From an uncultured Spartobacteria bacterium (lineage in GTDB: Bacteria; Verrucomicrobiota; Verrucomicrobiia; Chthoniobacterales; Chthoniobacteraceae): 44,434 bases of DNA. The position numbers and the translations under genes are program-made. Below, piece by piece: positions 11,145-30,409 of this stretch (its first letter is position 1; the number at the start of each line of letters is the position of its first letter). The stretch is from NCBI GenBank assembly GCA_903882875.1, contig CAIRYQ010000027.1, forward strand, positions 1 to 44,434. Direction: 5' to 3'. The notes under the pieces were generated by a model, which saw only the letters and a list, made by a program, of their open reading frames with translations, was not told the DNA's origin and did no database searches.

Positions 11145-11238
11145 AACCGTAGCTGCGCTTGTCAAAGCGAAGGCTGATCCTTTTTCCTGAAGCCGAGCAG
11201 ATCAAACAGCACGCGCTTTGACAAACGCGGTTACGGTT
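11145..11238. repeat. Imperfect 25-bp inverted repeat between convergent genes
   Basis: Arms at 11145-11169 and 11214-11238 match at 22 of 25 positions (one arm contains GCGCTTGTCAAAGCG, the other CGCTTTGACAAACGC), with a 44-bp loop. The right arm covers the stop codon of the permease gene (stop 11231-11233). It lies between the convergent receptor 2 and the ABC importer operon, so it may fold at the 3' ends of both transcripts. I recall similar palindromes as dispersed intergenic repeats in Verrucomicrobia, but this could not be checked. Confidence 0.65.
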
Positions 11239-12214
11239 CCCCGCTGAGCGCGCGAACGGCGCGGCGCTTCGTTGCGATACGCTTCACGAGTTCGTCGGCG
11301 ATGACTCCCGCGAGGATGACGGTGCCGATGATTGCGAATTCGAGATGCGTCGGGATGCCGAGGATGTTGATGGCGTTGTAGAGCACGCGCATCACCGCGG
11401 TGCCGATGATGACGCCGAGAATTGTTCCCTCGCCGCCGCGCAGGCTGCATCCGCCGAGCACCGCCGCAGCGATGGCGTACAGCTCGTAAAATTCGCCGAG
11501 ACCCGATGGCTGGATGGAATTGAGGTTCAGCGAAAACAGAATCCCGCCGACACCGCCGAGCAGCGAGCAGATGACGTAGGCGGTGATTTTCATCCGGTCG
11601 GTGTTGATGCCGCTGTAGCGCGCCGCGGTCTCGTTGCGCCCGAGTGCGAGCAGATAGCGGCCCCAAATCGTGCGGTTCAGAAAAATCGCGGCGGCCACCG
11701 CGATGCCCACCATGATGAACACCGACACCGGCACGGCGAATCCGCCGACCACGTCCAGTTTTCCAATCGCGATGCGGCGCAGCCCGTCGTGCGCGCTGCC
11801 AAAGCCCTGGCTTTCATCATCCGTGACGAATCGCGCGAGGCCGCGGTAGAGCAGCAGCCCGCACAACGTCACGACGAACGGCTGCAGGCGCATCTTCGTG
11901 ATCAGCAGCCCGTGCGAGAGGCCGATGAGCAGCGAGACCGCAAGCACTGCGAGCAACGCCGCCGGCTCGCTCCAGCCCTTGTGCATGAGCAGCCACGAGA
12001 GCAGCGAGCCGACCAGCCCGACGGTGGAGCCGATGGAAAGATCGATCCCGCCCGTGATGATCACAAACGCCGCGCCGATGCTGATGATGCCGAACAGCGA
12101 GGTCCAGCCGACGAGGTTTTGCAGGTTGTAGGCGCTGAGAAAATTCGGGCTCCGCAACGCCGTGAAGACGAAGATGAAGACGAACAGGCCGAAAATCCCG
12201 AGGAGTTTTTTCAT
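11231..12214 (-). CDS. Ribose/sugar ABC transporter permease (RbsC-like)
   Basis: This 327-aa inner-membrane protein forms the translocation channel of a ribose-type sugar importer. It has about 8-10 hydrophobic segments, with the family's conserved [17 protein letters not shown] near the N-terminus, the EAA-like segment [18 protein letters not shown], and [19 protein letters not shown] towards the C-terminus. The start overlaps the upstream ATPase stop by 4 bp (ATGA), so translation is coupled. It is the last gene of the long minus-strand cluster. The sugar is unknown. Confidence 0.92.
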
Positions 12215-13728
12215 GATGCGGAAGCGGTGTGTGCGGTGGCGAGGCGCATGATGGCCTCCTCGGAGAGTTCGTCGCGGCGCAGTTCGCCGGTGATTCGGCC
12301 CTCGTGCATCACGAGCGTGCGATCGCTCATGCGGAGGACTTCCTCCATTTCACTGCTGACAAAAAGGATCGCGACGCCGCGCCCGGCGAGTTCCTCCATG
12401 AGCCGGTAAATCTCCTGCTTCGCGCCGATGTCTATGCCACGCGTCGGCTCGTCGAGCAGCAGCACGCGCGGCTCCAGCGCGAGCCACTTCGCGAGCGCGA
12501 CCTTCTGCTGATTGCCGCCGGAGAGAAACTGCACGAACTGCGAGAGGTCCGGTGTCTTCACGCGAAGCTGCGTGGTCATCTGCACGGCGATTTCACCTTC
12601 GCGTTTGCGATTCAAAAAACCGGCGCGTGCATCGCGTCGCAGGCTCGCGAGCGTGGTGTTCTGACCGACGGCCATTTCCAAAATCACGCCCTGCTGCTTG
12701 CGATCCTCCGGCACGAGCGCCATGCCCGCGCGGATCGCATCCAGCGGCGATGCAATGCGGACGGGCCGCCCATTCATCCGAATCTCGCCGCCCGCCGTGG
12801 GATCGATGCCGAACAGCACCTGCAGCATCTCCGTCCGCCCTGAGCCAACGAGCCCCGCGACGCCGACGATCTCGCCGGGGCACACGGAAAAATCGAGCGG
12901 CTTGCGCGGATGCGCGGCAGTGCGGAGTCCGCGCGCTTCGAGAACCGGTGTGCCGTGTCCGCGCGCGGTACGGTCGTGGCGGCCGAGGTCGCGACCGACC
13001 ATGAGGCGCACCATCGCGTCGTGCGTGATTTCCCCGCGCTGCAATTCGCCTGCGTTCGCACCATCGCGAAGGACAAGCACTCGGTCGGCGAGTTCCTTCA
13101 CCTCGCCGAGCCGGTGCGAAATATAGACGACACTCACGCCACGCGAGCGCAGGTCCTTCACCACACGGTAAAGCTGCTCCGTCTCGTGCCGGCTGAGGCT
13201 CGATGTCGGCTCGTCCATGATGAGCACGCGTGCATTCGTGCCGAGGGCCTTCGCGATTTCCACGAGCTGCTGCCTGCCCGGCGACAGCGCGCTCACGAGT
13301 GTGCGCGGCGCGCAGTCGAGTCCGACCTGCGCAAGCAGCCCGAGCGAATCGGAGTAAAGCCGTCGCCGATCCACAAAGCCGAAGCGCTGCGGCTCGCGTC
13401 CGAGGAAAAGGTTCGAGGCGATGTCGAGATTGTCCGCGAGATTCAGTTCCTGATGGATAAGCGCGATGCCCGCGTGCTCTGCGGCGCGCACGTTTGGAAA
13501 GCGCACGGTCTCGCCATTCACGAGAATTTCCCCGCTGTCCTGCTCCTGCACACCCGCGAGAATTTTCATCAGCGTGCTTTTCCCCGCGCCGTTCTCACCG
13601 ATCACCGCGAGCACTTCGCCGCAGCCGAGCGTGAGGCCTACGTCGCGCAGCGCGCGCACGCCGGGGAAACTCTTGCACAGCCCGCGCACTTCGAGCAGCG
13701 GGCGAGCGTTCGGCTCCGGGAGATTCAT
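12211..13728 (-). CDS. Ribose-type sugar ABC transporter ATP-binding protein (RbsA-like)
   Basis: This 505-aa protein has two fused ABC ATPase domains. Domain 1 has Walker [10 protein letters not shown], signature [15 protein letters not shown] and Walker [10 protein letters not shown]. Domain 2 has the degenerate P-loop typical of this class ([10 protein letters not shown]), signature [16 protein letters not shown] and LLLDEPTRG. The double-domain format with one weak site is characteristic of RbsA/MglA/AraG importers. It begins 21 bp after the binding protein and overlaps the permease start. Role: powers sugar import at the inner membrane. Confidence 0.95.
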
Positions 13729-13749
13729 GCGCGTGCGTCGCCGCTGCGG

Positions 13750-14796
13750 TTACTTCCCGGCTTCCTGCATCTTCTTCAGGTCCACGCGGAATTTCTCCAC
13801 GTTTGCCTTCGTCACTTCGACGATTGGCACTTCGAGGAATCCGTCCTTCGGCAGCACCGATTTGTCGCCGTTCGCGAGGCCCGCGAGAATGCGCACGGAC
13901 TCGAAGCCGTAGTAGTAAGGCTGCTGGCTGATCGTGCCGACGACCGTGCCGTCCGCGATTCCCTGCAACACCGCCTCCTGCTCGTCGAAGCTCACGATTT
14001 TCATCGTGCCGATTTTGCCCGCCTCCTTCGCGGCCTCCATGCACTGCGGCGCGTTGTAGGCGTAGAGCCCGACCATGCACGCGAGGTCGGGCACGGATGC
14101 CATCGCGTCCTGCGCGTTCGCCTTGGCGCGCGCGTAGTCAAAATTGTCGGTGCGCGTGTCGAGCACGGTGAATTTTTCGCCGATGAGCGGGAAGCCGTTC
14201 GGGTCCGTCTTCATTGTCACGCCGGTCGTCAGCGCCGGGCGGTCGAGCAGTTCATCAATGACGCCCTGCCGGCGCTGCTGCGAGTTGAGCTGTTCGAGGC
14301 GGCCCACGAAAATCATTACCTTCCCTCCCTGCGGCAGCGCGGACTTCACCAGTTTGCCAGCGGCGCGACCGGCCTTGTAGTTGTCCATGCCGACGAAGCA
14401 GAGCCGCTTCGATTCCGGCGCGTCCGAATCGTGCGTGATGAGCGGGCAGCGCGACGCGGCCTCGTTGATGAGATCGATCTGGTTCTTCGGATCAATGGAG
14501 CTGATCGCGATGCCATCCACTCCACGCGCGAGCAGACCCTCGACCATGCGCTTCTGATCCACCACGCCCTTCGGCGGCATGAGCACCTCGCACTCAACGC
14601 CGAATTTCTTCTCCGCCGCGCGCACGCCCGCCGCAGCCGTGTTCCAAAACGGGTCCACGCCATTCGTCACGTAGGCGAGTTTCTTCTTGCCGCCGGAAGC
14701 ACCGCCTTCGGGCTTCTTGTCGCAAGCGGTGAAGAGCGCGGCGACAGCGATGGAAAGGGTGAGGAGAAAAGTGCGCGCGGAGATTTTCGATTTCAT
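13750..14796 (-). CDS. Sugar-binding lipoprotein of ABC importer (RbsB-like)
   Basis: This 348-aa protein has a lipobox (LFTACD) after a signal segment, so it is a periplasmic lipoprotein. A Gly/Lys linker is followed by a periplasmic-binding fold starting KKLAYVTNGVDPFW, then EVLMPPKGVVDQKRMVEGLL, GIAISSIDPKNQIDLINEA, CPLITHDSDAPESKRLCFVG, and a C-terminal lobe with VSFDEQEAVLQGIADGTVVG. This is the type I sugar-binding family. The ATG at 14796 was chosen because it starts directly before the basic, hydrophobic signal; nine extra codons from 14823 are possible. It lies 74 bp after the SDR gene and 21 bp before the ATPase. Confidence 0.92.
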   Translation of the reverse strand: MKSKISARTFLLTLSIAVAALFTACDKKPEGGASGGKKKLAYVTNGVDPFWNTAAAGVRAAEKKFGVECEVLMPPKGVVDQKRMVEGLLARGVDGIAISSIDPKNQIDLINEAASRCPLITHDSDAPESKRLCFVGMDNYKAGRAAGKLVKSALPQGGKVMIFVGRLEQLNSQQRRQGVIDELLDRPALTTGVTMKTDPNGFPLIGEKFTVLDTRTDNFDYARAKANAQDAMASVPDLACMVGLYAYNAPQCMEAAKEAGKIGTMKIVSFDEQEAVLQGIADGTVVGTISQQPYYYGFESVRILAGLANGDKSVLPKDGFLEVPIVEVTKANVEKFRVDLKKMQEAGK

Positions 14797-14870
14797 GGGA
14801 GAGAGGGCGCGGATGCTGAACACGCCGCGCGCATTTTGGAAACTGTTTTGCCAGCGAGTTCCGAGGCCAA

Positions 14871-15644
14871 TCAGTGGACGGTCATCCCGCCGTTCACGTG
14901 CAGATTTTGCCCCGTGACGAATGACGCAGCATCGCTCGCGAGAAAAACGACCGCGCCGCCGATGTCGTCTGGCACGCCCCAGCGATCCGTGGGGATGAGC
15001 GCGCGGTAGCCGTCCTTCACGTCCTGCGGATCGTTCTCATGCCGCTCCACGGGAATCCAGCCGGGCGCGATCATGTTCACGGTGACGCCCCACTTTGCCA
15101 CCTCCGTCGCGAGGCCGCGGTTGAAACCATTCTGCCCGCCCTTCGCCGCGATGTAGGCGGTGAAGTTCGGCACGCCGCGCGCGACGACCTCGGATCCGAT
15201 GTTGATGATGCGTCCCCAGCGCTGCTGCTTCATGTGCGGCAGGCACGCGCGCGAGAGGAGGTATGGGCTTTTCACAAAAAAATCGAGCATCTGCTGAAAG
15301 AACGCCCAGTCGTATTCCTCGATCGGCTTCTGCGGCTGAGCGGGTGTCGCATTCAGCACGAGGATGTCCACCGGCCCGAGCGTCTTCGCGACCTCAGCGG
15401 TGATGCGCGGCACCTCCGTCTCGCTGCTCACATCACCGCGCACGAGCATCCCCTCGCCGCCCGCGGCCTTGAATTCCGCAAGCGCCTTCTCCGCACGCGC
15501 CGTGTTGTTTTGGAAATTGAGCGCGACCTTCGCGCCCGCGCGGCCAAGCGCGACGGCCATCGCCTTGCCGAGGCCGGTGGTGCTGCCGGTCACGAGCGCG
15601 ACGCGGCCTGTGAGGGAAAACGGGGATTTGGTTTGCTGGGGCAT
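14871..15644 (-). CDS. SDR-family NAD(P)-dependent oxidoreductase
   Basis: This 257-aa cytoplasmic protein of classical short-chain dehydrogenase type has the cofactor motif TGSTTGLG near the N-terminus, LVLNATP in place of NNAG (a divergent NAG motif), a catalytic Ser in NIGSEVV, the YxxxK motif YIAAK, and the C-terminal GQNLHVNGGMTVH. The ATG at 15644 is preferred over a start 12 codons upstream because the Rossmann fold begins soon after it. It lies between exported metallo-beta-lactamase-fold proteins and the sugar importer, so oxidising or reducing the imported sugar or sugar acid is a reasonable inference. The substrate is unknown. Confidence 0.9.
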   Translation of the reverse strand: MPQQTKSPFSLTGRVALVTGSTTGLGKAMAVALGRAGAKVALNFQNNTARAEKALAEFKAAGGEGMLVRGDVSSETEVPRITAEVAKTLGPVDILVLNATPAQPQKPIEEYDWAFFQQMLDFFVKSPYLLSRACLPHMKQQRWGRIINIGSEVVARGVPNFTAYIAAKGGQNGFNRGLATEVAKWGVTVNMIAPGWIPVERHENDPQDVKDGYRALIPTDRWGVPDDIGGAVVFLASDAASFVTGQNLHVNGGMTVH

Positions 15645-15739
15645 AAGTCGCCACGATGTGTGCATCGAACCTGCCGGCAATCACGAGCGAAAAATATGCG
15701 CGGCTTTTTCAACGCCACCGACTGCTTTTGGGCTGGCGC

Positions 15740-17716
15740 TCACCGTGCCGCTTCGCTGCCGAGGACGATGAAATCGAACAGCTCGCCGTTGCGCTTCCCG
15801 TCGAGCGTGATGTCGAACGGAACGATATGCACGCCCTCGCCGAGCACGCCGCGATCTTTCATCGTCAACCTCACGGGAAAAGTCACCCGGCTCTTCGCGG
15901 CGACCGTGCCTTCGAGCACACGCGGTTCCGCTTCGATGCCGGGCGGCAGTTTCAGTTCCACGCGATGCTTCTCTGGCGTGTCGCGGAAATTGCGCACAGT
16001 GACCTTCACAGTCTGGGCGTCGTCCTTTCGCAAATCCACGCGATACGGATATGCGTGCACCCAGAACGGATCGTAGCCATATTCGTAGTTCCGATCCGGC
16101 ATCAACTCTCGGTAGTGCGCGATGATCCGCTTCGACCACTCGTGGTAACGCTCCAGAAACGCAGCGGGATTTGGCATCAGCACGGAGTGCGCGCCGGAGA
16201 CGATGTCGGGCTTCAGATCGCGCAGGTAGTGGCTGCCGACGAGGTAGCCTTCCTCGAAGATCGCGCTGTTGCGCGCGACCACCGCCTCGTGTCCGTTCTG
16301 CGCGGGATCGGAAGGATCGCCGAAAAGATTGTCGCCGGTGAACGCGATGCGCTTGCCGTCGAGTTCGAGCCAGAGGCAGTTCCCGAATTCGGTCTGCCCC
16401 GGCATCCAGTCCACATGCAGCTTGTAGCCTTCCCAATCAATGACCTCGCCATCGCGGATCGGGCGGTCAATTTTCAGCCCCTCGTACTCGCGGTTGTACG
16501 AAGTGATCAGCGCGCAGTAGTCGTAGCGCAGCGGATTCTCGATCGGGTCCACGATGCGTTCGAGCGTCCACGCCTTCACGCCGTAGTGCTTCTTCAGCGC
16601 CGCGCCGAGCGTGAAGTGATCGCCGTGCATGTGCGAGATCCACACCGCATCAATGCCCTTCAGCCCGAGGTGCATTTTCATCTGCTCGACCAGGCTGTGC
16701 AGCACGATCTCGGGAAAAATGCCGCAGTCGAGCAACAGAGCGCGTCCGCTGTCGGCGATGATGATGGTGAAATTTTTTCCCGCGAGCAGGTCACTGAATT
16801 TGTAGAGGTGCGGAGTGACCTGCACGAGCTGCGGGATGACCGTGGGCTTCACGAAGGTGTCCGGTTTTCGCTCGGTGAGATTCTGCACGGGATAGCCTCG
16901 GACGTAGTCGGGCCGGAACGCGGCGAGCTTCGCAGCGTAGCGCCGGAACTGCGCGTCCGCGTCCATGATCGCGGGCCCTTGCGAGGGAAAAGCAATGTCC
17001 GGCTTCAGCCCGATCACGCGATCCACCGACGCGATCAAAGCATCGAGCCCCTTCGCGAACCCATAGTCCCACTCGGTGTCGAACCAGTTGATCATCCGCG
17101 CGCCGTCGTGCATGAGCCCGCCTGTGAAGGCGCACGCGCGTCCGCCATTTTTCAGCACGAAACTCATCCCGCCCGGCGAGTGCCCCGGCGTGCTCACGCA
17201 CGTCAGCTCATGACCGCGCCACGCGAACACCTCGTCATTCGCCAGCGCGCGATCCACGCGGATCGGAACGGCAGATGGGCGCACGAAGCTCGCGCCATGC
17301 ACGGTGAATTTGTCACCGAGCGTCGGTCGCCATTTGCGAAACTGCAGCGGATTTTCCAGTAGCTCCTGCTCGTCCTTCGGCGCGGCGACCTTCGCCTGCG
17401 TGCGGTCCAGCCGCGCGATGCCCTGGCACAGTTCGCGGTGATGATCGGTGAAGAGCACCCACTCCACGCGCTTCACACCGATCTTGTTCAGATGATCCAG
17501 GGCGCTGCCGTCACCGAGGTTCACGAGCAATGCCGTGTCGCCGTCGCGCAGCACCCATACGTTGCAGGTGTCGGCCCAGAGAAAAAGATTCGGGTGCGCC
17601 TTGGCATCCGGCTGCGAGAAACCTGCGGCGTGAAGCCGCGCGCAAGTGAGCAGGCTCAGGATCAAAGTCAGCCACATTTTTGGCATCGTGCGGGAATCGG
17701 TCTTCGTCGGGTTCAT
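15740..17716 (-). CDS. Exported tandem metallo-beta-lactamase-fold protein
   Basis: This 658-aa protein has a signal peptide (LTLILSLLTCARLHAAG). It contains two metallo-beta-lactamase (MBL) folds in series. Domain 1 (about 35-280) has TDHHRELCQG (90-99) where HxHxDH is expected, but keeps PGHSPGG (177-183). Domain 2 (about 295-530) has the full SHMHGDHFTLG (361-371) and TGDNLFGD (460-467) but PGQTEFG (439-445) in place of PGHTxG. So each half lacks part of the metal site the other keeps. A beta-type C-terminal domain (about 540-658) follows. It begins 40 bp after the 1100-aa protein, which also has an MBL domain. It is predicted to be a periplasmic hydrolase; substrate unknown. Starts at 17686 or 17677 are also possible. 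Confidence 0.85.
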   Translation of the reverse strand: MNPTKTDSRTMPKMWLTLILSLLTCARLHAAGFSQPDAKAHPNLFLWADTCNVWVLRDGDTALLVNLGDGSALDHLNKIGVKRVEWVLFTDHHRELCQGIARLDRTQAKVAAPKDEQELLENPLQFRKWRPTLGDKFTVHGASFVRPSAVPIRVDRALANDEVFAWRGHELTCVSTPGHSPGGMSFVLKNGGRACAFTGGLMHDGARMINWFDTEWDYGFAKGLDALIASVDRVIGLKPDIAFPSQGPAIMDADAQFRRYAAKLAAFRPDYVRGYPVQNLTERKPDTFVKPTVIPQLVQVTPHLYKFSDLLAGKNFTIIIADSGRALLLDCGIFPEIVLHSLVEQMKMHLGLKGIDAVWISHMHGDHFTLGAALKKHYGVKAWTLERIVDPIENPLRYDYCALITSYNREYEGLKIDRPIRDGEVIDWEGYKLHVDWMPGQTEFGNCLWLELDGKRIAFTGDNLFGDPSDPAQNGHEAVVARNSAIFEEGYLVGSHYLRDLKPDIVSGAHSVLMPNPAAFLERYHEWSKRIIAHYRELMPDRNYEYGYDPFWVHAYPYRVDLRKDDAQTVKVTVRNFRDTPEKHRVELKLPPGIEAEPRVLEGTVAAKSRVTFPVRLTMKDRGVLGEGVHIVPFDITLDGKRNGELFDFIVLGSEAAR

Positions 17717-17756
17717 GGTTATGGGAAGGAAGAGTGCCAGCGCACAAGGAACCGCA

Positions 17757-20700
17757 TCACGGCTGACACCAGATGTACACAGTCAGCGGACCGCTCGTGC
17801 CCACGCCGGTCTCGGTGTAGCCGAGCGCGGCGATGTCGGGTTTTCCGTCGCCGTTGAAATCCGCGACGAACAATCCGGTCTCGTAGTGCAGGTGGTAATC
17901 GAGCGCGATGATCTGCCGCCTTGTCGCATCGAGTCCCGCCGCGCTGCCGGGAATGATGTGGATCTCTTTGCTCTGGCCGATCGCGAGGAACACATCGTCA
18001 AAACCGTCGCGGTTCCAGTCGCCGACGGCGATGCTCTCACGGATCAGCGAAGCCGGGCCGCGTTTGCTTTTCAGGTCCACGGGCCATGCGATGCGCTGGT
18101 GCGGCTCGGCTCGGAAAGGCTGCGCCGCATTGCCGGTGTTGAGAAATTCTTCGGCGGGCTCCTGCGCCTCGTACGGCGCGATGAGCACATCGGGCTTCTT
18201 GTCGCCGTTGAAATCACCGACGGCGAAATAGCGCCACTTCGAGTCCCGCGGAGCGATTCGCCGCGGCGGTGCGCCGTGCAGCAGGACATCGCCGTACGAA
18301 GTGAGGATGTCCGCTTTGCCGTCCCCGTTCAGATCAATGCGTCGGAGATCGAGATACGCGCCGCTCATCTCCGGCTGAACCGTCTGCAAACTCAGCCTGC
18401 CATCCTTGCCCTGCACGATCTGTTGCACGGCACCGAAACGCCGTGCGACGGATACGCCGTGCGGTGCGCGCTTCGGATCTTCACCTGCGAAGACATGCAC
18501 GATTTCGCCGACAGGCAGTGCGTGCGTTTCGTATTCGAGTTTGCCTTTCGACAGCAACAGCACCGAGGTCTGGCCCGACACGAGGAAGTCGGGCAGCCTG
18601 TCGCCGTTCAGTTCCGCAGTGGCGATCTTAAGATGATCGGAGGCGATGCCCGGCAGCACGATCTCCTTGTCGGGCTCATCGGCAAATCGTCCGGCGTGAT
18701 TGAGGAAGATGCGCACGATCGCGCCGTCGCGCGCATCGTTAAGCGAGACGATCGCAATATCAGGCCGCCCATCGCCGTCGAAGTCGCCGAACGCCGCGGA
18801 CTGCGCGCCAAAATTCCACGCGGCCACGATCACATTCGGCTGCATGATTCGGAAACGCGGATCCGGCCGCGACGGCGGAATTTTCCCCCAGCCCACGCGC
18901 GTGCCCGTCTCGATGCCCTCGCCGAGGTATGCTTCCGGCGGAAGGATCGGGCCGTGCCCCGGCAGGATGAAGTCCGCATGCACATCCTGAAGTTTCCGCA
19001 GGCTCGCGAGCACATCGTGCGCGCTGAAATTGATGCTGCCCGAGTAGCCGAGTGGCCCGTGTGGCATGATCAAATCGCCCGTCGCGAGGAACCGCTTCCC
19101 GTCCTTCTCGAAGCTCCATCCCATCGATCCCACCGTGTGCCCCGGCGCGCGGATTGCACGCACTTTGAGGCCCGCGAGATCGAGTTCCGTGTCCTCCATG
19201 ATCCGAATGTCCGTCGGCACCGGCGGATGGAATCCGTAGCCGGAGTTCAACGGGACGTGATGCTGCAATGTGTAGGCCATCTCCTCGCTGCACACGAACT
19301 TCGCGCCTGTCGTCACGCGCCAGAGGTATGCACCCGGCGCGTGGTCGCCGTGCTCGTGCGTTGCCAGCACGAATTTCACGCGCATCGGATCGAGACCCGC
19401 CTGCCGGATCGCCGCCCATTCGCGCTCAAACGAAAGCGCGGCGTGCGCCTCGATCAAAATCAGCCCGTCGGACGCCTCGATCACGCGCTGCCCGCCCATG
19501 TCGCTCTCCGTGCGGCCTCCGGGAATTCCCCACAAGCCGGCAGCGATCGGATCGGCTGCGGCCTTCGCAATCCACGGTTTCTCCGCGTGCGGCACCGATT
19601 GATTCAGATCGCAGCGCCATCGCTCGTGAAAATCGGCGTCCATCCCGATCACGACGCCATCGGCGCGCGCGGCGACGATTTGATCCTCGCGGTTCACAGC
19701 GAGCAGCGCGGCACCGCCAAGTTGCAGCGGCTTCGACAGACCAGGCACCCCGGAAAAATGTGCATTGCTGATGCGGTAAAGTGCGCCATCCCAGCACGAC
19801 ACGATCATTTCACCACGCGATATCAGCTCGAGATCGGCGACGGCGTCCGGCATCCGCGATGTGCGGACCTCACCCGACTCCACATCGAGCAAGCAAATGT
19901 CCCTCGCTTCTTCATCCGATGGGAGAAAAGCACTGCCGCCCAGCCCGCGACTGGTCCAATGATGCGGCCATGCAATGAGATGCTTTCCGTCCGGCAGAAA
20001 ACGCAGGTCGAGCCACGCGGCCTCAGGGAACGACGCGGCTTCGAAACGGCGCAGCAGCTCACCATGCCCGTCGAACACTGATACCACCGGGCGCGACGGC
20101 GTGAAGCGCGTGCCGATATGCTGCGGATTCGCCGTCGCGGAGGAGCGCACCCACCGCTGCCAGCCGCGGTAGTCCGCAGTGGCCACGCGAGCAAGCGAAC
20201 CATCCGCCGCCGCGTGCAGCGCGAACGAGAGCGGTGCGCTCACCGGCACGTCCCATTGTTCGAGCGCAATTTTTTCACCGTTGTGCCTCGTCGGCGCGCC
20301 GTATGCACCTTTCTCTGGCGCACCCACCGCAGGAAGATCGCCCAGCGCCGCACGCGACCAGAGCGGTTTGCGCTCGTTTGGTTGCAACACGTGCAGATTG
20401 TCCGGCAACGCACGGCCTTCGAGCACAGCCGCGTGACCGAGCACGATGATCCCATTCGGGAGCGCAACCGCGGCAGTGCCGACGGCGTCCTCCGCGACGG
20501 GAAGATTCACGGTGAACTTCCACGACGGATCTTCCTTCGGATGCCACAACGCCGACTTGCCCGCGTTCACCCATATGCCGTCCGTGCAACTGAGCACCTT
20601 CATGCCGAGGTGATTTGAATGATCGCCGTAGTGGAATGACGCCGTAGCAAATCCCTCCTGCGTGCCGAGCGGCGGCAGCGCGAACGTCTGCGCGCCGCGG

Positions 20701-21059
20701 ATGAACACCGTCGGAAAATCGTTCGCCTTTCCATCTGCATGAGTGCAGAGCGCCATCACGGACGCGCCGTCTGGCAGCACCGTCACCGACTCGATCCATC
20801 GCTGTCCGACCGCGTGATGCGCGATGATTTTTCCCGTGGCATCGAGCACGATCACATTCGGGTCTTCCGCCGGAGCGATCGTTCCGAGCACGATGCGCCC
20901 GCCATCCGCGGACATGTGCAATGCGGACACGCCCTGCCACGGCAGCGGCCCGGTGCCGCGCGCATCCCACGCTGGCGCTTTCGTCTGCGCCAAAAGATCC
21001 GACGCGCAAGCCAGCGCGATCACGCCGGCGACTTGCAGATGGCGAATATTTTGGAACAT
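17757..21059 (-). CDS. 1100-aa exported fusion: propeller-like, MBL-fold and FG-GAP repeats
   Basis: Three parts are visible. First is a signal peptide, residues 1-25 (ending DLLAQ). Residues about 35-510 look like a WD40/PQQ-type beta-propeller (repeated blade-like strands such as SALHMSADGGRIVLG and LRFLPDGKHLIAW). Residues about 525-710 form a metallo-beta-lactamase domain with THEHGDHAPG (H568, H570, D572, H573), APGHTVGS (H641), TGDLIMPHG (D662) and LPGHGP (H702), so a complete metal site. Residues about 750-1100 hold FG-GAP/VCBS calcium-loop repeats: DFDGDGRPD (759-767), DLNGDGKAD (909-917), DFNGDKKPD (949-957), DWNRDGFDD (1014-1022) and DFNGDGKPD (1067-1075). The start at 21059 follows from the signal peptide. 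Its start is 10 bp after the previous stop. Function unknown; a periplasmic or surface hydrolase is likely. Confidence 0.85.
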   Translation of the reverse strand: MFQNIRHLQVAGVIALACASDLLAQTKAPAWDARGTGPLPWQGVSALHMSADGGRIVLGTIAPAEDPNVIVLDATGKIIAHHAVGQRWIESVTVLPDGASVMALCTHADGKANDFPTVFIRGAQTFALPPLGTQEGFATASFHYGDHSNHLGMKVLSCTDGIWVNAGKSALWHPKEDPSWKFTVNLPVAEDAVGTAAVALPNGIIVLGHAAVLEGRALPDNLHVLQPNERKPLWSRAALGDLPAVGAPEKGAYGAPTRHNGEKIALEQWDVPVSAPLSFALHAAADGSLARVATADYRGWQRWVRSSATANPQHIGTRFTPSRPVVSVFDGHGELLRRFEAASFPEAAWLDLRFLPDGKHLIAWPHHWTSRGLGGSAFLPSDEEARDICLLDVESGEVRTSRMPDAVADLELISRGEMIVSCWDGALYRISNAHFSGVPGLSKPLQLGGAALLAVNREDQIVAARADGVVIGMDADFHERWRCDLNQSVPHAEKPWIAKAAADPIAAGLWGIPGGRTESDMGGQRVIEASDGLILIEAHAALSFEREWAAIRQAGLDPMRVKFVLATHEHGDHAPGAYLWRVTTGAKFVCSEEMAYTLQHHVPLNSGYGFHPPVPTDIRIMEDTELDLAGLKVRAIRAPGHTVGSMGWSFEKDGKRFLATGDLIMPHGPLGYSGSINFSAHDVLASLRKLQDVHADFILPGHGPILPPEAYLGEGIETGTRVGWGKIPPSRPDPRFRIMQPNVIVAAWNFGAQSAAFGDFDGDGRPDIAIVSLNDARDGAIVRIFLNHAGRFADEPDKEIVLPGIASDHLKIATAELNGDRLPDFLVSGQTSVLLLSKGKLEYETHALPVGEIVHVFAGEDPKRAPHGVSVARRFGAVQQIVQGKDGRLSLQTVQPEMSGAYLDLRRIDLNGDGKADILTSYGDVLLHGAPPRRIAPRDSKWRYFAVGDFNGDKKPDVLIAPYEAQEPAEEFLNTGNAAQPFRAEPHQRIAWPVDLKSKRGPASLIRESIAVGDWNRDGFDDVFLAIGQSKEIHIIPGSAAGLDATRRQIIALDYHLHYETGLFVADFNGDGKPDIAALGYTETGVGTSGPLTVYIWCQP

Positions 21060-21069
21060 GGGAGTGATC

Positions 21070-23835
21070 CTATTTTTCCCGGATGAGCGCCGCAATCTCG
21101 TCGACGTTGACCGGATGATCGAGCACCACGACACGACCGATGAGTCCGCGGTAGTACGCATCGTGAAAATAGAAAATCTCCGCGCCCAACACGAGAGACG
21201 GCACGACCGGCGCATCGTTCGGAACCTTCGTCGTCGTGCCTTCATGCACCTGCCTGCCATTGAGGAAAAGCCGCACCCGCCACTGCCCGTCCACAGGCGC
21301 GGCGGTCATCGCAATGTGAACCCAACGCTCCGCGTCCACCGTCTCGGAGGAAGTGAATGTCTCGGTTGCGTTGATGCGCGTGGTGAGACGGTAGGGTGCC
21401 TTTTGTCCGAGCAGTCCGAGGATGAAACGGCGCGCGCCGTAGCCGACCACGTCGCCTTTTCCAGACTGCCCGCCGCGGCCCATCTCGGGCGCGGGCTTAA
21501 TCCACGCGGCGAGCGTGACGCCCTTCGCCGGAGCGCCGCCGCCGTGGACTCCCGCGAGCGCGACCGGCAGCGTATCCTTGTTCGTATAGCTCGGATGGCC
21601 GAGGTAATTTTTCAACGCGCCGTCGCGACGGTAGTCCGCGCGGCCTGTGGTGTTGTCGGCGAAACGCAGCGCGTGGCGGCCTTCGTCCACGATCCATTCG
21701 AGATTCGCAAGATCGAGATGTCCGAGCAAATTCGGCACTGCGCCGTTCAGGACGACGCTACCGCTGCCTTCCTCCATGCGAAAGTCCGCGATCGCGCCCG
21801 CAGGCGCTTTTGCAAAAGTTGGCGGCTCGCCGTTCGGCTTTGCAATGCCGGAGGGAGCAGCCTCGTTTTCGTTGAGCCTGCGGAATTCCACATCCGTCAC
21901 GAGCATCGCGCCAGTTCCCGCATTTCCGAATGCGACGGCCAGCGCGCCGGTGTCCTCGGGCACTTCGAAAATGAAACCGGTCTTCTTCCAGTCAAACGTG
22001 CCGTTGCCTGCGAAGTGCCGCGCCTCTGCGAGTTTGTTGTTCGTCTTCGCCTGCAATGCTTCCAGCTCGATGCGTCCGCCCGGCCCGTGGGAGTTCTCGG
22101 ATTTTACGAGCGCAGTGACGACGTATCGTCCTGCGGCGACCGGCCCGGATTTTTTCAGGATCGCTTTTCCAAATGACGCCGGCCCGAGCCTCATCGCAAA
22201 GCCGCTGCCGGCAACGCAGTCCTTCACCAGATCGTATGTCGGGCGCTGGTTGTGTCCCGTCATGAACGGCGTGCGTCCGTAGATCCAAGTTTCGCTCAGC
22301 GGCACGTACTGGCTGAACGTGAGCTTCGGCCACTCGTCCGCGAAAATGAAGTGCTTCTTCGGATCGAGCGTCGGCATGTCATAGACCTTTGACTGTGAGA
22401 AAAGCTTCGCCGCTTCGTCGTGCGGATAGCCGGTGTAGCGGTACTTCACGCGGATCTTCGTGCCTGGCACCGCGGTCTCCGGTGCGAAACTCACGCCGGT
22501 GTCGTAGAAGGCTGCACACACTGCGGTGTTCAGCTTGCGCTCGACGATTTTCGTCGCGTCCTTCGCATCGCGGTTCCAGCCCGTATCAATCTCGTACTCG
22601 ACCGCGGGCGCGACCTGCATCTCCTCGCCGTGCCTGCCGAACCACACGCGCAGGCCGTGGTACGGTTCCAGATCATTTTGCGGGCCGGGATCGAACGGCC
22701 CGACCGGCCGGTGATACAACTCGCCGCCGCGCCGCACCGCGACGAGGTACTGCCAGCGAAATGGATCCAACGGCGTATGATGCTCAAAATCGAAACCGTA
22801 ACGGAAGTGAAACGGCTCGCCCTTTTCCACATCGAGTTCGCTCTCGATGTCGTAGGTGTAGGTGCCGCGCTGCGCATCGAAGCCGACCGTCATCGTGCTG
22901 TGCGTCGTGAAGCGATCCTTCACGCTGCGCGCCGACCACTCCGCCTTCAACGTGCGCCCGCCACCGCTGACGACAGACTCGGTCCACGTGCTCGCGGCGT
23001 CGGGAAACGCGCCCTGGTTTGCGAGATCCCAGTGCGAATCAAAAGTGAGCTGCGGCTTGTAGCCCGGCCTGAGTTTCGCAAAGCAGCTCGGATCCTTCGC
23101 GTAGTGAAGCTGGAGCACGGGTTCGTCGCCGTCGAAAACCCACTGGCGATCACCGAGCCATCTGCGCACGGAAAAATTCGGCGTGTACGGCTGTTCGGAC
23201 GCAGACGGTTTGTCCGTCGCCGCGGGCAGCGGCTTCACCGCGACCCTTTCAAAAATCACGCGCGCACCGCTGCAGACGCCGATCCCTGCGACGCCCTTTC
23301 CGAGCGGCAGGAACGAATCGCGCCACCGGATTTTCTCCGCACCGTCCACGCTCACGGTGATCTCGCCGCCCTGCGCACTCGCACGAATTTGCTGCGGCGC
23401 GTTCAGTTTCACCTCGCACGGCGCCACGCGCACGTAGCCGCCCTCCGGCCACTTCACGAGCGCGACGACCTGATACTTGTGCGAGAGCTGCACGCGAAAG
23501 CCGCCGGCCTCGCCAGCGCGCAGCAGCAACGCGGACTCGAAGCCCGCATCGCCGAACGTCGCATCCGGCCACGCGCTCCATCCGCCACCAAAAAAGCGGA
23601 ACTGCTTCGCGGCTTCCGCGATGGTGACGGTCGCGGAAATCTCCGCATCTGCGAACTTCTCCTGCGCGCACAGGGTGCTCCATTTTTCCGCAGTCAAAAT
23701 CGCCGCGCCATTCGCAATGCTCGCGCCTTTCCAATCCGGCGGCTGCGATGACCATGCTGAGAGATCCTGCGCCGATGCGACGGACGCGAAGAATGACGAC
23801 ACATATGCGGCAACGAGAGGAACGGATTTTTTCAT
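21070..23835 (-). CDS. Large exported protein with C-terminal LamG domain
   Basis: This is a 921-aa protein. A signal peptide (residues 1-22, ending SVASAQ) is followed by a beta-rich domain resembling the DUF1080/3-keto-disaccharide hydrolase (laminarinase-like) fold (about 23-205: SAWSSQPPDWKGASIANG, ITVSVDGAEKIRW). The large central region (about 220-560) is unrecognised and resembles a carbohydrate-active-enzyme scaffold. A carbohydrate-binding-like segment follows, then a LamG/concanavalin domain at residues 682-921 (FRMEEGSGSVVLNG, VTLAAWIKP, WRVRLFLNGRQVHEG, GLIGRVVVLDHPV). It lies 44 bp after the PSCyt gene and 10 bp before the 1100-aa gene, in one transcript. Likely binds or cleaves a glycan outside the inner membrane; no catalytic residues could be assigned. 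Confidence 0.8.
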   Translation of the reverse strand: MKKSVPLVAAYVSSFFASVASAQDLSAWSSQPPDWKGASIANGAAILTAEKWSTLCAQEKFADAEISATVTIAEAAKQFRFFGGGWSAWPDATFGDAGFESALLLRAGEAGGFRVQLSHKYQVVALVKWPEGGYVRVAPCEVKLNAPQQIRASAQGGEITVSVDGAEKIRWRDSFLPLGKGVAGIGVCSGARVIFERVAVKPLPAATDKPSASEQPYTPNFSVRRWLGDRQWVFDGDEPVLQLHYAKDPSCFAKLRPGYKPQLTFDSHWDLANQGAFPDAASTWTESVVSGGGRTLKAEWSARSVKDRFTTHSTMTVGFDAQRGTYTYDIESELDVEKGEPFHFRYGFDFEHHTPLDPFRWQYLVAVRRGGELYHRPVGPFDPGPQNDLEPYHGLRVWFGRHGEEMQVAPAVEYEIDTGWNRDAKDATKIVERKLNTAVCAAFYDTGVSFAPETAVPGTKIRVKYRYTGYPHDEAAKLFSQSKVYDMPTLDPKKHFIFADEWPKLTFSQYVPLSETWIYGRTPFMTGHNQRPTYDLVKDCVAGSGFAMRLGPASFGKAILKKSGPVAAGRYVVTALVKSENSHGPGGRIELEALQAKTNNKLAEARHFAGNGTFDWKKTGFIFEVPEDTGALAVAFGNAGTGAMLVTDVEFRRLNENEAAPSGIAKPNGEPPTFAKAPAGAIADFRMEEGSGSVVLNGAVPNLLGHLDLANLEWIVDEGRHALRFADNTTGRADYRRDGALKNYLGHPSYTNKDTLPVALAGVHGGGAPAKGVTLAAWIKPAPEMGRGGQSGKGDVVGYGARRFILGLLGQKAPYRLTTRINATETFTSSETVDAERWVHIAMTAAPVDGQWRVRLFLNGRQVHEGTTTKVPNDAPVVPSLVLGAEIFYFHDAYYRGLIGRVVVLDHPVNVDEIAALIREK

Positions 23836-23879: not shown

Positions 23880-26800
23880 CTACTCCATCACCGAAAATTC
23901 CGGTGAGAGCAGGAGGGCCTGGCAGAGTTCCTCCAGTGCGGTGAGCGGCTTCGCGGGTTTGCTCGGATCGGCAAAATCCACGCGGGCGTCCCATCGCTGC
24001 ACCATGCCGGGCATGCCGGGCATCGCGCTGCCGGGGACGGTGATGCTCGGGGACCATTGGTAAGGGCCGCCGTCTTTCTCGCTCTGGCTGCTCACGATGA
24101 AATCGAGCGTGTCGCCTTTTTTCACGGAGACTTTGGCGAGGTCCGTGCAGAGCGATTGCGCCTTCGCCTTCCACTCGCCAATTTCGCCGCTGCGGCTGCT
24201 GATGATGCGCGCGATGACACCCTCGGTCTTCGCATCGGTGTGCGTGAGTTCGGCGGAGATGTTGATTTCCCCGTCAAGCGGCGCGATCCAGCGGCGGATG
24301 CTCGAGAGCGCGGCGCTCACTCCGGGATCGCCGCCCATCGCATCCACCTTGACCTCACTCGGCTTGCCGTCGGCGGTCGTGAGCGTCCCCTTGAACGCCT
24401 TGCCGTCGAAGGCGCTGAACTTGGAAAAATGCTTCACGCGCTTCGACGTGTCGTCGAATCCTCCGTAGCCGTACTGCCAGTCACCGGATTCCGGATGCAC
24501 AAGATCGTTCTGCGGATACGCGGCGAGGTAGCCGCGTGCGCGCTTCAGCTCCGCGTCGCTCGGCTGGCGCTGGAGCACGCGGCGGTAAAGCTCAGTGATG
24601 CGGGCCGCGTCATCGGACAAGTCCTTCGTGAGCGAGGCGGCGAGCGCCTTTGCGCTATCGGTGATGAGCGGGCTGTTCATCAAAATGAGCGCGCGCGGCG
24701 TGAGCGCGGTGCGTCCGCGTTTTGGCGCGCTGAAATTCGGATCGGGAAAGTCGAAGCTGCGGTAGAGCGACGGCTGCGTCTTGCGTTCCACGAAGCCGTA
24801 AATGGTGCGCCTCGTCGTCGTGTCAATTTTCTCCGCCTTGCCAAACTGGTCATTTTTCAGCCGTCCCGTGACGGCGAGCAACGCGTCGCGGAACGGCTCC
24901 AGATCCAGCGGGCGCATCGGGAAATCCGCGCGCTGATACGCGGCGGTGAGCATGATGTGCCTGTGCAGCTTCTTGAAGCTCCACCCATTCTCCATGAACC
25001 ACGCGGCGAGGTGATCGAGCAGCGGCTGATTCGTCGGTTTGTCGCCGCGGAAGCCGAAATCGCTCGGCGTGCCGACAATGGGCTCGCCAAAATGCCATGC
25101 CCACACGCGGTTCACGATGACGCGCGCGGTGAGCGGGTTGTCCTTGCTCGCGATGGCCTTCGCGAGTTCGAGGCGTCCGCTCTTGTCCTTTGGAAAAGGC
25201 TCGGGCGCGACGTGCCGCAGCACGGTGAGGAACTGCCGCGGCGCATCCGGCCCTTTCGCATTTGGGTTGCCGCGCACGAAGACCTTGCCGTCATACATTT
25301 TCTCCGCATCCACAAAAATCATCGGCCGCACGGGCGCGCCAGGATGCGTGAGCGTGAGCTTCTCGAACTCACCGAAAATTTTCACCGATGGGTCGTCCGC
25401 GGGCAGGATGCGCGACGAGCGGATGCTCTTTGTGGAAAACTTCATGCCCGATCCTTTCGCGATGAGGATCTGGTGGAGCGATTCCTGATCGGCGTCAGGC
25501 AGCGGAAGCTTCGCGTCCAGCGCATCGAGGCGGTCGAAGAACATCGGCTGGAGCTTGTCCACGAACGGATAGTGCTCCGTCATGAACAGATCGATTTCCT
25601 CCTGCGTGAGCTGCACGGGCTTCTCGATCTCGGACTTCGCAAGCGCGCGCCATGCGGTGTCCACGCCGGCGAATAACTCGTTGTAGCGTCTCGCGATTTC
25701 CGCAAGATCCGCAGCGGGCGTAGCGAACGCCTTCGCGACCAGCGGATGCAGCGTCGGCGCGGGATCGAGCTTTGCCTTCGTGATGAACTCGATGAACGGC
25801 CCGAAGACTTCGGGATGCGCCTGGATCCAAGCCTTGCGGCTGGCAATGACGGACGCATGCACGGCGGTGCTGAGCTTCCGCTTCAGGCACATGTCGGGCA
25901 CCTGCTTGTTGTCGTATTGCGACTTCCAGCCCGACTCCTCGGCGAGCGCAAGATAATCGCCGACGCGGGTGCGCGCCTCGTGGATCGCCACGCTCGCGCC
26001 CTTGATGGATGCGACTGCAAAATCGCCACGCAGCTTGAGATCTTTCTCCCGGAACTCGCGCACCTCCGGAGTGTCCGCCTGCGGCAATGCGGGCGTCATG
26101 TCGGGTTCCTTGCTGCTCTTCAGGATGGCGTAAAGGCCGTAGTAATCCTTCGTGGGGATCGGCTCCAGCTTGTGATCGTGGCAGCGCGCGCAGCCGATGG
26201 TGAGGCCCATGAGTCCGCGTCCGATCACATCAATCGTGTCGTCCAGCGTGTCGTCGTCGAGCCTGCGATCCTTGCGCCGCCCGATGCCGAGAAAACCCAT
26301 GCCGGCGAGCGTGCCCGCGTCGTTCGCCGTGTCGAGCTGATCGGCCGCGATTTGCTCGATGAGAAAGCGGTCGTAGGGCTTGTCGTCGTTGAATGCCTTG
26401 ATGACGTAGTCGCGGTACGTGAACCCATTCGGATACGTATCATCGCCGTTAAAGATGGCGCCCATGTTGTCTGCGTAGCGCGCGACATCCAGCCAATGCC
26501 GCCCCCACTGCTCGCCATAGCGCGGATCAGCAAGGAGCCTGTCCACGAGCGACTCAAATGCCCGAGTGGAAGTGTCCGCGACGAACGCATCCACCTCGGC
26601 GCAGCTCGGAGGCACGCCGAGCAGATCGAAATACGCACGGCGGATCAGCGTGCGCCGGTCCGAAGGCGGGGCCTTCCCCGGCACGAGCGCGTCGAGTGCT
26701 TCGGGTTTCAGCGGCGGCACAGGCTGGTAGGCCCAGTGCTTCTTCGCATCCTCGAGATGCTGTTCGATTTTCGTGATCTCATGCTTGCCGGTGCGCGAGT

Positions 26801-27176
26801 CGGGCGCGCCCATTTTGATCCATTCCTCGAGCGCCGCAATCTGATCGTCGCCAAGCTGCTTTTTCGGCGGCATCTGCAAATCCTTGTCCGTCCATTTCAC
26901 CGCCTGGATCAGCAGCGACTTCGCGGGGTCGCCCGTGACCAGCGCCGGCCCGGTGTCGCCGCCTTTCAGCACGCCTTCCTTCGTATCGAGAGCAAGCCCG
27001 CCTTTCTGTTTTTTCCCAGCGCTGTGGCACTCGTAGCAACGCTCGACGACGATCGGGCGGATCTTGTTTTCAAAAAAGGACAGTTGCTCCGGCGTCGGCT
27101 CCGCAGCATTCAGCGCGACGAGCGGGAGCAGCATCCAGCAGGCGGGGATTGTGAGTGAACTGACGGAAAATCTCAT
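23880..27176 (-). CDS. Exported PSCyt1/DUF1549/DUF1553 cytochrome-domain protein
   Basis: This is a 1098-aa protein. A signal peptide is followed by a Planctomycete-type cytochrome domain with a single haem motif CYECH (C47, C50, H51) and MPPKKQLGDDQIAALEEWIK, whose Met may be the axial ligand. Then come DUF1549 (about 160-370; LLGVPPSCAEVDAFVAD, YGEQWGRHWLDVARYADN) and DUF1553 (about 640-900; RLELAKAIASKDNPLTARV, NRVWAWHFGEPIVGTPSDFG, LHRHIMLTAAYQ). This trio is abundant in planctomycetes and verrucomicrobia and is usually paired with a DUF1501 partner, as here (two genes upstream). The function is not settled; a role in glycan or sulfated-polysaccharide breakdown is commonly suspected. The ATG at 27176 fits the signal peptide. 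Confidence 0.92.
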   Translation of the reverse strand: MRFSVSSLTIPACWMLLPLVALNAAEPTPEQLSFFENKIRPIVVERCYECHSAGKKQKGGLALDTKEGVLKGGDTGPALVTGDPAKSLLIQAVKWTDKDLQMPPKKQLGDDQIAALEEWIKMGAPDSRTGKHEITKIEQHLEDAKKHWAYQPVPPLKPEALDALVPGKAPPSDRRTLIRRAYFDLLGVPPSCAEVDAFVADTSTRAFESLVDRLLADPRYGEQWGRHWLDVARYADNMGAIFNGDDTYPNGFTYRDYVIKAFNDDKPYDRFLIEQIAADQLDTANDAGTLAGMGFLGIGRRKDRRLDDDTLDDTIDVIGRGLMGLTIGCARCHDHKLEPIPTKDYYGLYAILKSSKEPDMTPALPQADTPEVREFREKDLKLRGDFAVASIKGASVAIHEARTRVGDYLALAEESGWKSQYDNKQVPDMCLKRKLSTAVHASVIASRKAWIQAHPEVFGPFIEFITKAKLDPAPTLHPLVAKAFATPAADLAEIARRYNELFAGVDTAWRALAKSEIEKPVQLTQEEIDLFMTEHYPFVDKLQPMFFDRLDALDAKLPLPDADQESLHQILIAKGSGMKFSTKSIRSSRILPADDPSVKIFGEFEKLTLTHPGAPVRPMIFVDAEKMYDGKVFVRGNPNAKGPDAPRQFLTVLRHVAPEPFPKDKSGRLELAKAIASKDNPLTARVIVNRVWAWHFGEPIVGTPSDFGFRGDKPTNQPLLDHLAAWFMENGWSFKKLHRHIMLTAAYQRADFPMRPLDLEPFRDALLAVTGRLKNDQFGKAEKIDTTTRRTIYGFVERKTQPSLYRSFDFPDPNFSAPKRGRTALTPRALILMNSPLITDSAKALAASLTKDLSDDAARITELYRRVLQRQPSDAELKRARGYLAAYPQNDLVHPESGDWQYGYGGFDDTSKRVKHFSKFSAFDGKAFKGTLTTADGKPSEVKVDAMGGDPGVSAALSSIRRWIAPLDGEINISAELTHTDAKTEGVIARIISSRSGEIGEWKAKAQSLCTDLAKVSVKKGDTLDFIVSSQSEKDGGPYQWSPSITVPGSAMPGMPGMVQRWDARVDFADPSKPAKPLTALEELCQALLLSPEFSVME

Positions 27177-27205
27177 GGAATCAGAGCGGTGCTTCAGTGC
27201 CGGGA

Positions 27206-28450
27206 TCATACGACACCGCCGATGTCTATGATGTGAAGCTGACGGCCTTGATTCGTGTGCGGCGAATCAATGCACACCCACCGCTCGTCGCGGCTGGTGC
27301 GCGGGTGGTTGTCCACGCGCCATTCGCCCTTGTAGGCCGGTGGCAGCGGGAATTCGCCGAGGTCAATGCGGCGGTTCGATTTGATGTGATAAAGGTGCGG
27401 AGTCTGCAGGCGATGATCGCCTTTGGGATAGGTGTCGTTGAGTATCCACTCATTGTTCCGCAGGTAGGTGAGGTGGCCGCCGCTATCGAGCACGCCTCTG
27501 CCGATCTCCTCGACGATGCCGGAGTCCTTGTCCGCAAAAAGAAAATCGCCCCACTGGTCGTTTCCGATCCAGCCTTTGGCCTGTGAGAGAATGTGCGTGG
27601 TATCGCGCCAGATGAAGTGCGACGCGTAGCCGTTCGGGATGACGATGCGCAAATCGCTGCCGTCCATCGCGGCGGTGACGAGCCGCGTGAGATGACCGCC
27701 CTTCGGCTGCGTCCAGCGATGCAGCATGATGAATCGCTTCCCGTCCGGGCCGCACAGCAAGTGGTAGGCGTGATGCTTCGATGTGGGGTGATTTTCGATG
27801 ACCTCGCCGGTCTTCGACAACCGCTCGTGCGTGACGACGAGCTTCTCCGCGCCCGTCTCCAAATTCACGTGTGTGACACCGCTGCCGGCGGGGGCCATGT
27901 CGTCGAAAAATCGGTCTCGGATCCCCGCGTAGCCGTAGCCGGGCCGGCAGTCGGCCACTCGGGAAAAATCGCAGGACACGGCTTCCTTGCCATTCGGACT
28001 CAGCGCGTAAATCGGCGTCGAAAGCGTCCGCTTGTCGCCCGTGTTCACGTCGAGGATGTGGCTCACGAAGCGATCCTTCTCGCGGTCGTTCCAGATGATC
28101 TTCGACGCAGTGTCTGGTATCCATTGCAACATGCAGCCCTGCTGCCAGCACCACGCGTTTGATTTGCCGAGCGGGATCCATTTGTCCTTCTCGTGCAAGT
28201 CCACCATGCCGACTTCGATTACGTCCTCCGCAGTCGGCGAGCGATGCTCGAAGGTGACCTTGTTACCGAGCACAAAACGGTTGTCCGGCGAGAACTGCAG
28301 CTTGTCGTAGTAGCCGAACCAATGGAATCCCGGGCCGCGCGTGATCTGGCGGATGGGCGGAAACTTCGCAGCATCCTGCCCGCGCAATCCGACACTGACA
28401 GAGGCAGCAGCGAGCGTGGAGAGGAACTGGCGACGGGACGTTTGATTCAC
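27206..28450 (-). CDS. Tat-exported beta-propeller protein of oligogalacturonate-lyase type
   Basis: This is a 414-aa protein. A twin-arginine signal (SRRQFLSTLAAASVSVGLRG) sits at the N-terminus, so it is exported folded, often with a bound cofactor or metal. The rest resembles a seven-bladed propeller of the oligogalacturonate lyase/TolB type: FGYYDKLQFSPDNRFVLGNK, CMLQWIPDTASKIIWND, HHAYHLLCGPDGKRFIMLHR, DGSDLRIVIPNGYASHFIW, ILNDTYPKGDHRLQTPHLY and HPRTSRDERWVCIDSPHTN. The conserved His residues could bind a metal. It lies between the DUF1501 and PSCyt genes with gaps of 84 and 29 bp. The lyase activity is inferred from family resemblance only. Confidence 0.78.
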   Translation of the reverse strand: MNQTSRRQFLSTLAAASVSVGLRGQDAAKFPPIRQITRGPGFHWFGYYDKLQFSPDNRFVLGNKVTFEHRSPTAEDVIEVGMVDLHEKDKWIPLGKSNAWCWQQGCMLQWIPDTASKIIWNDREKDRFVSHILDVNTGDKRTLSTPIYALSPNGKEAVSCDFSRVADCRPGYGYAGIRDRFFDDMAPAGSGVTHVNLETGAEKLVVTHERLSKTGEVIENHPTSKHHAYHLLCGPDGKRFIMLHRWTQPKGGHLTRLVTAAMDGSDLRIVIPNGYASHFIWRDTTHILSQAKGWIGNDQWGDFLFADKDSGIVEEIGRGVLDSGGHLTYLRNNEWILNDTYPKGDHRLQTPHLYHIKSNRRIDLGEFPLPPAYKGEWRVDNHPRTSRDERWVCIDSPHTNQGRQLHIIDIGGVV

Positions 28451-30001: not shown

Positions 30002-30409
30002 GGCAACGATACTACCCACGGTGTATGCACCCGCTGGAAAAAATCTTGCGCAAACACGTCGTTTTCCCAGTCTTCTTCAGAAAGGAATCCAGGAAAATTT
30101 CCGCGGAATAGGCGGAGCACGAACCACGGATTATGTGGACGGGCATAGGGCTCCTCCGAAAATCATCGCTGCCATGGGTGACACCCGTATTGATCTCTTT
30201 TCTCATCCGATCGCTCGATATTTTCTCAATCGCATCAGGCAGCCCGTTCGCCAAGGATATCGGACGGAACCCGTCATGCGAAGCGGTGCTAAGAGAACTT
30301 GGAAGGCACCCTTTAACTGCTAGCGTCATCTTGCAATGAATCGTTCGATAAATCGCGTCGCACAACCGCACGCGTGCTCGCCGGTTCGTCGCATGTGCCC
30401 CTCAATCCC
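30002..30409. other. Divergent intergenic region, 408 bp
   Basis: This lies between the DUF1501 gene (-), which heads the ten-gene cluster, and the LRR gene (+). It must carry the promoter of the cluster if it is one transcript. Sequence around 30180-30260 is AT-richer than the surrounding genes. No repeat, RNA gene or clear operator was recognised, and open frames here look non-coding. Confidence 0.4.

Follow-up and report, generated by a model that had tools for sequence, protein, structure and literature searches.

A fusion of a propeller-like half, a complete metallo-beta-lactamase site and FG-GAP repeats, encoded with PSCyt/PSD1 and DUF1501 genes in an uncultured Spartobacteria bacterium

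The metallo-beta-lactamase (MBL), FG-GAP and propeller domains are each already known. Among the gene families met alongside them here, PSCyt genes are numerous in some Verrucomicrobia genomes according to passages of He et al. (2017, PMC5615132), which also describe some of them as carrying carbohydrate-binding modules and sulfatase genes as often lying nearby in some of the genomes studied; DUF1501 is described in Pfam as a protein of unknown function. The present analysis concerns a 44,434-nt contig stretch (positions 1 to 44,434 of CAIRYQ010000027.1, assembly GCA_903882875.1; hereafter the window) from an uncultured Spartobacteria bacterium, in which a single gene joins a probable propeller, a complete MBL metal site and an FG-GAP tail. 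The first two parts, here called the core, recur without the third in five other genomes, near PSCyt/PSD1 and DUF1501 genes. Neither the core in this setting nor its FG-GAP-tailed form has a name in Pfam or NCBIfam, and a literature search, limited in sources and wording, found no paper on an MBL-FG-GAP or MBL-propeller fusion, in agreement with the first-pass annotation of this DNA, which knew of no named family with this order of parts.

Domain order and metal site of the fusion protein

The first-pass annotation placed an 1100-residue protein at 17757-21059, which is confirmed here with the addition of its strand: the plus-strand translation of this interval contains stops, and the protein is encoded on the minus strand, where an AGGA motif, read directly, ends 8 nt ahead of the ATG. 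Hydrophobic residues at about positions 10-24, seen by eye, suggest that the protein is exported. The three-part fusion, probably of an exported protein, is a confirmed feature of the window.

The protein belongs to the metallo-beta-lactamase superfamily by profile, by fold and by a full HxHxDH, H, D and H ligand set. Pfam Lactamase_B matches residues 526-702 at 57.6 bits, the cut-off being 22.7, and the ligand residues reported in the first-pass annotation (HEHGDH at 568-573, H641, D662 and H702) are exact at every position. Alignment to solved metallo-enzymes suggests that the seven ligands would form one metal site, in which D662 occupies what we take to be the position of the metal-bridging Asp. 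The closest solved sequences are subclass B3 enzymes, with 7luu at an expect value (E) of 5.5e-14.

A structure model of 247 residues, built from a shallow alignment of ten sequences, recovered a separate MBL fold, so that the earlier claim of such a fold stands. The model has a predicted TM-score (pTM) of 0.70 and a mean predicted local distance difference test score (pLDDT) of 68.8, with 145 of the 247 residues at pLDDT 70 or more and model residues 1-28, 103-110 and 219-247 under 50. Foldseek matched it to L1 (E 5.7e-13, TM 0.56), and VIA-align superposed it on 7luu with a root-mean-square deviation of 2.6 over 184 residues (Z 19.4). The fold is clear but the subfamily is not, because glyoxalase-II-like chains trail the best B3 chain by no more than 1 Z unit. 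Single-sequence AlphaFold2 modelling of the whole protein gave a pLDDT of 33, and that model was not used.

The N-terminal half is likely a beta-propeller, a reading that depends on profiles built with the relatives described below. Alone, the N-terminal half of the window protein has no match in Pfam even at E 10 and none in the Protein Data Bank (PDB). A six-member profile of this half matches the natural pyrroloquinoline quinone (PQQ) protein 3hxj at E 8e-4 and designed 'Cake' propellers down to 1e-15; the values for the designed propellers are summed over repeats, each with an E of about 0.1. The BamB family (TIGR03300) matches two of the six members (E 2.8e-6 and 0.0015), and WD40 matches five of them weakly (best E 0.023), the window protein being the member without a match. 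These propeller-type matches mainly cover the last part of the half and miss the curated cut-offs. A phmmer search of PDB with the N-terminal half of one relative (G808) gave no convincing match, and the N-half profile did not match the propeller-like protein encoded at 27206-28450 of the window. Of the order proposed in the first-pass annotation, therefore, the sequence of parts holds and the propeller fold is likely only.

The tail passes the Pfam cut-offs for both FG-GAP_3 (PF13517; 86.9 bits against 26.9, six stretches) and FG-GAP (PF01839; 78.2 bits against 22.1, five stretches). These scores, like that of Lactamase_B, far exceed what chance would give. The five calcium-loop repeats noticed earlier correspond to canonical calcium-type loops at residues 759, 909, 949, 1014 and 1067. 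By eye, ELNGDRLPD resembles a sixth, variant loop with E in first place, which may differ from the sixth stretch in Pfam.

The core and its neighbourhood in other genomes

The genome searches together took in at most 863 distinct genomes. When the whole protein was compared with 384 genomes of the class, two matches spanned part of the N-terminal half and the MBL domain in one frame: G808 (query 224-665, E 8.4e-41) and G834 (query 220-704, E 1.6e-38). Profile searches found the core gene in 3 of the 11 genomes of the family of G808 (f124) and in both genomes of the family of G834 (f134). The core is thus present in five other genomes (G808, G834, G836, G840 and G843) from two other families. 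The search for the same architecture proposed in the first-pass annotation yielded relatives of the N-terminal half and MBL domain. Among the candidates scored in the genomes sampled, in the plasmid records and in the species-collection scan, no other protein combined the three parts.

The five relatives share 27-30% identity with the window protein and 72-93% among themselves, and all seven ligands are invariant in the six members; because the relatives are so similar to each other, this conservation amounts to comparing two lineages. With the starts chosen, the relatives are 773-782 residues long and end soon after the last ligand; the G836 copy starts with a long proline run, a possible sequence error. 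A loop scan found no calcium-type loop in any of the five, and Pfam gave no FG-GAP match in the two that were scanned whole. Among the genomes searched, only the window copy has so far shown an FG-GAP tail.

The gene next upstream of the core gene is a PSCyt/PSD1 gene in all five relatives, cut by the contig end in G840. Downstream, a DUF1501 gene lies at 0-1.4 kb in the four relatives with enough contig, that of G836 ending too soon. It overlaps the core gene in G808 and lies within about 0.6 kb after it in G840 and G843, being the next gene in all three. In G834 it lies 1.35 kb past the core gene with small frames between. Upstream of its core gene, G808 encodes a sugar-type binding protein and permease, and G843 has a permease nearby; genes of this kind are also present in the window. 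The neighbouring domains were called by Pfam for two of these loci, G808 and G834. The N-terminal half and MBL domain define a small family of six known members near PSCyt/PSD1 and DUF1501 genes. As a separate observation, the interval between the core and DUF1501 genes of G834 (L325 8422-9212, minus strand) holds two small frames, one of them HNH-endonuclease-like by eye, which are perhaps a later insertion.

In the order of G808, 2 of 35 genomes gave matches, namely G808 itself and an 82-position stretch in G712. The latter (L337 5597-5842, minus strand) lies between PSD1 and DUF1501 and comprises 79-89 aligned residues that match the C-terminal end of the core family at 79-86% identity; it is likely the remnant of a lost core gene.

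Other searches gave partial matches or none. The whole protein found MBL-only or FG-GAP-only matches, besides itself, among 97 relatives, and likewise among 59 genomes from the family that includes G325, a genome described below. The N-terminal half as query found only the window's own genome among 387 genomes of the phylum. Five of 72,556 plasmid records matched, none over 80% of the query and none with a three-part protein. A six-peptide scan of an 84,980-species collection, a weak scan in that exact peptides were needed, gave one FG-GAP match only, and viral contigs contained no relative of the fusion protein. The rarity of the core gene is an estimate, because genomes were sampled and because the search of the 384 class genomes and the profile search of the 387 phylum genomes scored no more than two candidates in each genome, so that members may have escaped them.

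The gene run in the window

Ten minus-strand genes at 11231-30019 are separated by gaps of less than about 90 bp, with start codons as listed, and are likely one operon, as judged from this spacing. Their order is DUF1501, a protein presumably resembling oligogalacturonate lyases (without a Pfam family), PSCyt/PSD1, the Laminin_G_3 protein, the fusion gene, a two-MBL protein, a short-chain dehydrogenase/reductase (SDR) enzyme and a sugar-type ATP-binding cassette (ABC) transporter (Table 1). The PSCyt/PSD1 and DUF1501 genes share the run of the fusion gene without adjoining it. Scanning 11000-30400 for promoters gave 0 sigma-70-like sites, compared with 2.8 in shuffled sequence.

Table 1. Positions in the window of the fusion gene, its parts and its neighbours
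Feature	Position	Strand	Basis
DUF1501 protein	28535..30019	minus	Pfam
PSCyt1-PSCyt2(DUF1549)-PSD1(DUF1553) cytochrome protein	23880..27209	minus	Pfam
Upstream neighbour, 921 aa, C-terminal Laminin_G_3 domain, gap 10 bp	21070..23835	minus	Pfam
Propeller-MBL-FG-GAP fusion gene (propeller probable), 1100 aa	17757..21059	minus	ATG start, one open frame without stop
Probable Sec signal peptide, residues about 1-24	20988..21059	minus	judged by eye
N-terminal half, residues 25-500, probable PQQ/BamB-like beta-propeller	19560..20987	minus	profile matches with relatives
MBL-fold domain, residues 501-710	18930..19559	minus	Lactamase_B E 2.2e-15; model pTM 0.70; Z 19.4 to 7luu
HEHGDH, residues 568-573 (ligands H568, H570, D572, H573)	19341..19358	minus	motif and alignment
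Ligand H641 (in PGHT)	19137..19139	minus	motif and alignment
Ligand D662 (in TGD)	19074..19076	minus	motif and alignment
Ligand H702 (in PGHGP)	18954..18956	minus	motif and alignment
FG-GAP repeat tail, residues 745-1100	17760..18827	minus	Pfam and five canonical calcium-type loops
Downstream neighbour, 658 aa, two MBL domains, gap 40 bp	15740..17716	minus	Pfam
Sugar-type ABC transporter: permease, two-domain ATPase, periplasmic binding protein	11231..14823	minus	domain search

The tandem MBL protein that the first-pass annotation saw beside the fusion protein does adjoin it and has two MBL stretches in Pfam. The first domain is degenerate (HHREL, TGGL, SQGP), and the second has HMHGDH, D and H but carries a Gln (MPGQT) at the expected place of the third His. 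In G325, a relative of this protein with 55% identity keeps the HHREL and MPGQT segments and is preceded by a gene that we take to be sulfatase-like.

Elsewhere in the window, a second DUF1501 gene (31603-32997, minus strand) lies beside a gene for a leucine-rich-repeat protein (30374-31567, plus strand). A 368-residue protein encoded at 38514-39620 (minus strand) has no Pfam family at 0.001; its N-terminus may resemble DUF4062-type domains.

Proposed role and comparison with known systems

The fusion protein is proposed to be an exported dinuclear-metal hydrolase, probably a zinc enzyme, acting on a carbohydrate-derived substrate, a reading to which a probability of roughly 0.5 is given. It would work outside the cytoplasm, with HEHGDH, H641, D662 and H702 holding two metals that activate water and the MBL domain serving as the catalytic unit. 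The N-terminal half, as part of the conserved core, would probably be a propeller serving to position the substrate or a partner protein, and the FG-GAP tail would be an add-on whose calcium-stabilised loops probably anchor the enzyme to, or bind, a polymer, surface or partner. The substrate would probably be carbohydrate-derived, such as an ester or lactone, and handled by the products of the same gene run, namely the PSCyt/PSD1 cytochrome, DUF1501, the Laminin_G_3 protein and the sugar-type ABC transporter. The order of the domains, the full set of ligands, the fold of the MBL part and the conservation of the core and its neighbourhood are established by the analysis; export, the identity of the metal, hydrolysis, the propeller fold and the class of substrate belong to the proposal.

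Several observations weigh against this proposal. The core gene is rare and patchy in its distribution: the core profile found only the window's own genome among the phylum genomes, and the N-terminal half, used as a single-sequence query, found only it in the window's order (1 of 213 genomes). The partners seem able to do without the core gene, because G712 keeps only 80-odd residues of it. The window neighbours also occur apart from the fusion gene, which is missing near the two-MBL relative in G325 and beside a 60% identical relative of the Laminin_G_3 protein in G013 (L094), where the contig ends about 1.9 kb after. The propeller assignment rests on weak profile matches, as the per-repeat values for the designed propellers illustrate. 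Passages of He et al. (2017, PMC5615132) give PSCyt products as predicted to be periplasmic or cytoplasmic and report PSCyt functions as unknown.

The protein could instead be a lactonase of the quorum-quenching type or a glyoxalase II-like detoxifying thioesterase, in either case with no link to carbohydrate use, which is considered unlikely. A bridging Asp is usual in lactonases and glyoxalase II-type thioesterases, GloB/glyoxalase II (TIGR03413) is matched weakly by all six members of the core family (best E 3.4e-8), and the window protein has a weak match to the AidB lactonase (NF047979; E 4.5e-8). However, the AidB match reaches only 32.7 bits against a curated cut-off of 360, GloB proteins are not usually exported or encoded in a long multi-domain frame, and the recurring neighbours are PSCyt/PSD1 and DUF1501 genes.

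A rather unlikely alternative is that the protein binds or senses, with the MBL domain as a non-catalytic scaffold. Propeller-like and FG-GAP parts are as a rule binding rather than catalytic modules, and non-catalytic MBL domains may occur in this gene run, because the adjoining protein carries a degenerate one. Retention of all seven ligands in every member, across two lineages of such low identity, argues instead for a working site.

That the protein is a true subclass B3 metallo-beta-lactamase, or a close functional equivalent that degrades beta-lactams, is very unlikely. Besides the closest solved sequences, the best NCBIfam match is bla_subclass_B3 (NF033105), yet its 72.6 bits (73.7 for residues 1-735) are far under the curated cut-off of 240, and on this ground the beta-lactamase identity was rejected. 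The Asp at 662, absent from the aligned B3-like relatives, is kept, the neighbours are cytochrome and sugar-transport genes, and the glyoxalase-II-like chains score almost as well in the fold comparison.

An assembly artefact joining two unrelated frames, to which the absence of the tail from all five relatives might point, is scarcely credible and was rejected on the intact frame and the even composition along the gene (G+C/third-position G+C of 0.641/0.731, 0.652/0.814 and 0.630/0.771).

The proposal of an exported hydrolase can be extended, as a long shot, to a more specific scheme, in which the propeller-MBL protein would be an optional third component of a PSCyt/PSD1-DUF1501 module. Outside the cytoplasm, the cytochrome partner would oxidise a sugar unit to, for instance, a lactone, the MBL enzyme, docked by its propeller, would open this product before uptake by the sugar ABC transporter, and in the window the FG-GAP tail would tie the enzyme to a polymer or surface. 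A partner with a complete catalytic site near PSCyt and DUF1501 genes in three bacterial families offers a handle for assays, and identifying the substrate of the MBL enzyme would give a pointer to the function of the whole PSCyt/PSD1-DUF1501 module.

Of the known systems, the subclass B3 enzymes (L1, BJP-1 and 7luu) have the MBL fold and most of the ligands in common with the window protein and are its best sequence and fold matches, whereas their solved chains are of single-domain size and the window protein adds the Asp and misses the family cut-off. The quinoprotein relay system zinc metallohydrolase 2 family (TIGR04559) is likewise an MBL family and is matched by all six core members (best E 1e-7), but the window protein scores 30.3 bits against a curated cut-off of 280, and the model covers no such fusion because it has 283 positions. 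PQQ-type and BamB-like propellers (3hxj, TIGR03300) resemble the last part of the N-terminal half, by profile or in two of the six members, but the curated cut-offs are missed and the window protein alone has no match. The domain search proposed in the first-pass annotation thus places both the MBL domain and the tail above curated Pfam cut-offs; the tail is like other FG-GAP/VCBS repeat proteins (PF13517, PF01839), fused in the window behind an MBL domain. Also close in layout are the core proteins of the five other genomes, which resemble the window protein in the N-terminal half, the complete MBL site and DUF1501 nearby where the contig allows, with PSCyt/PSD1 next upstream rather than elsewhere in the same run. 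Unlike it, they stop soon after the last ligand and have no calcium loops, and the FG-GAP tail of the window copy shows how a propeller-MBL core can gain a new targeting domain.

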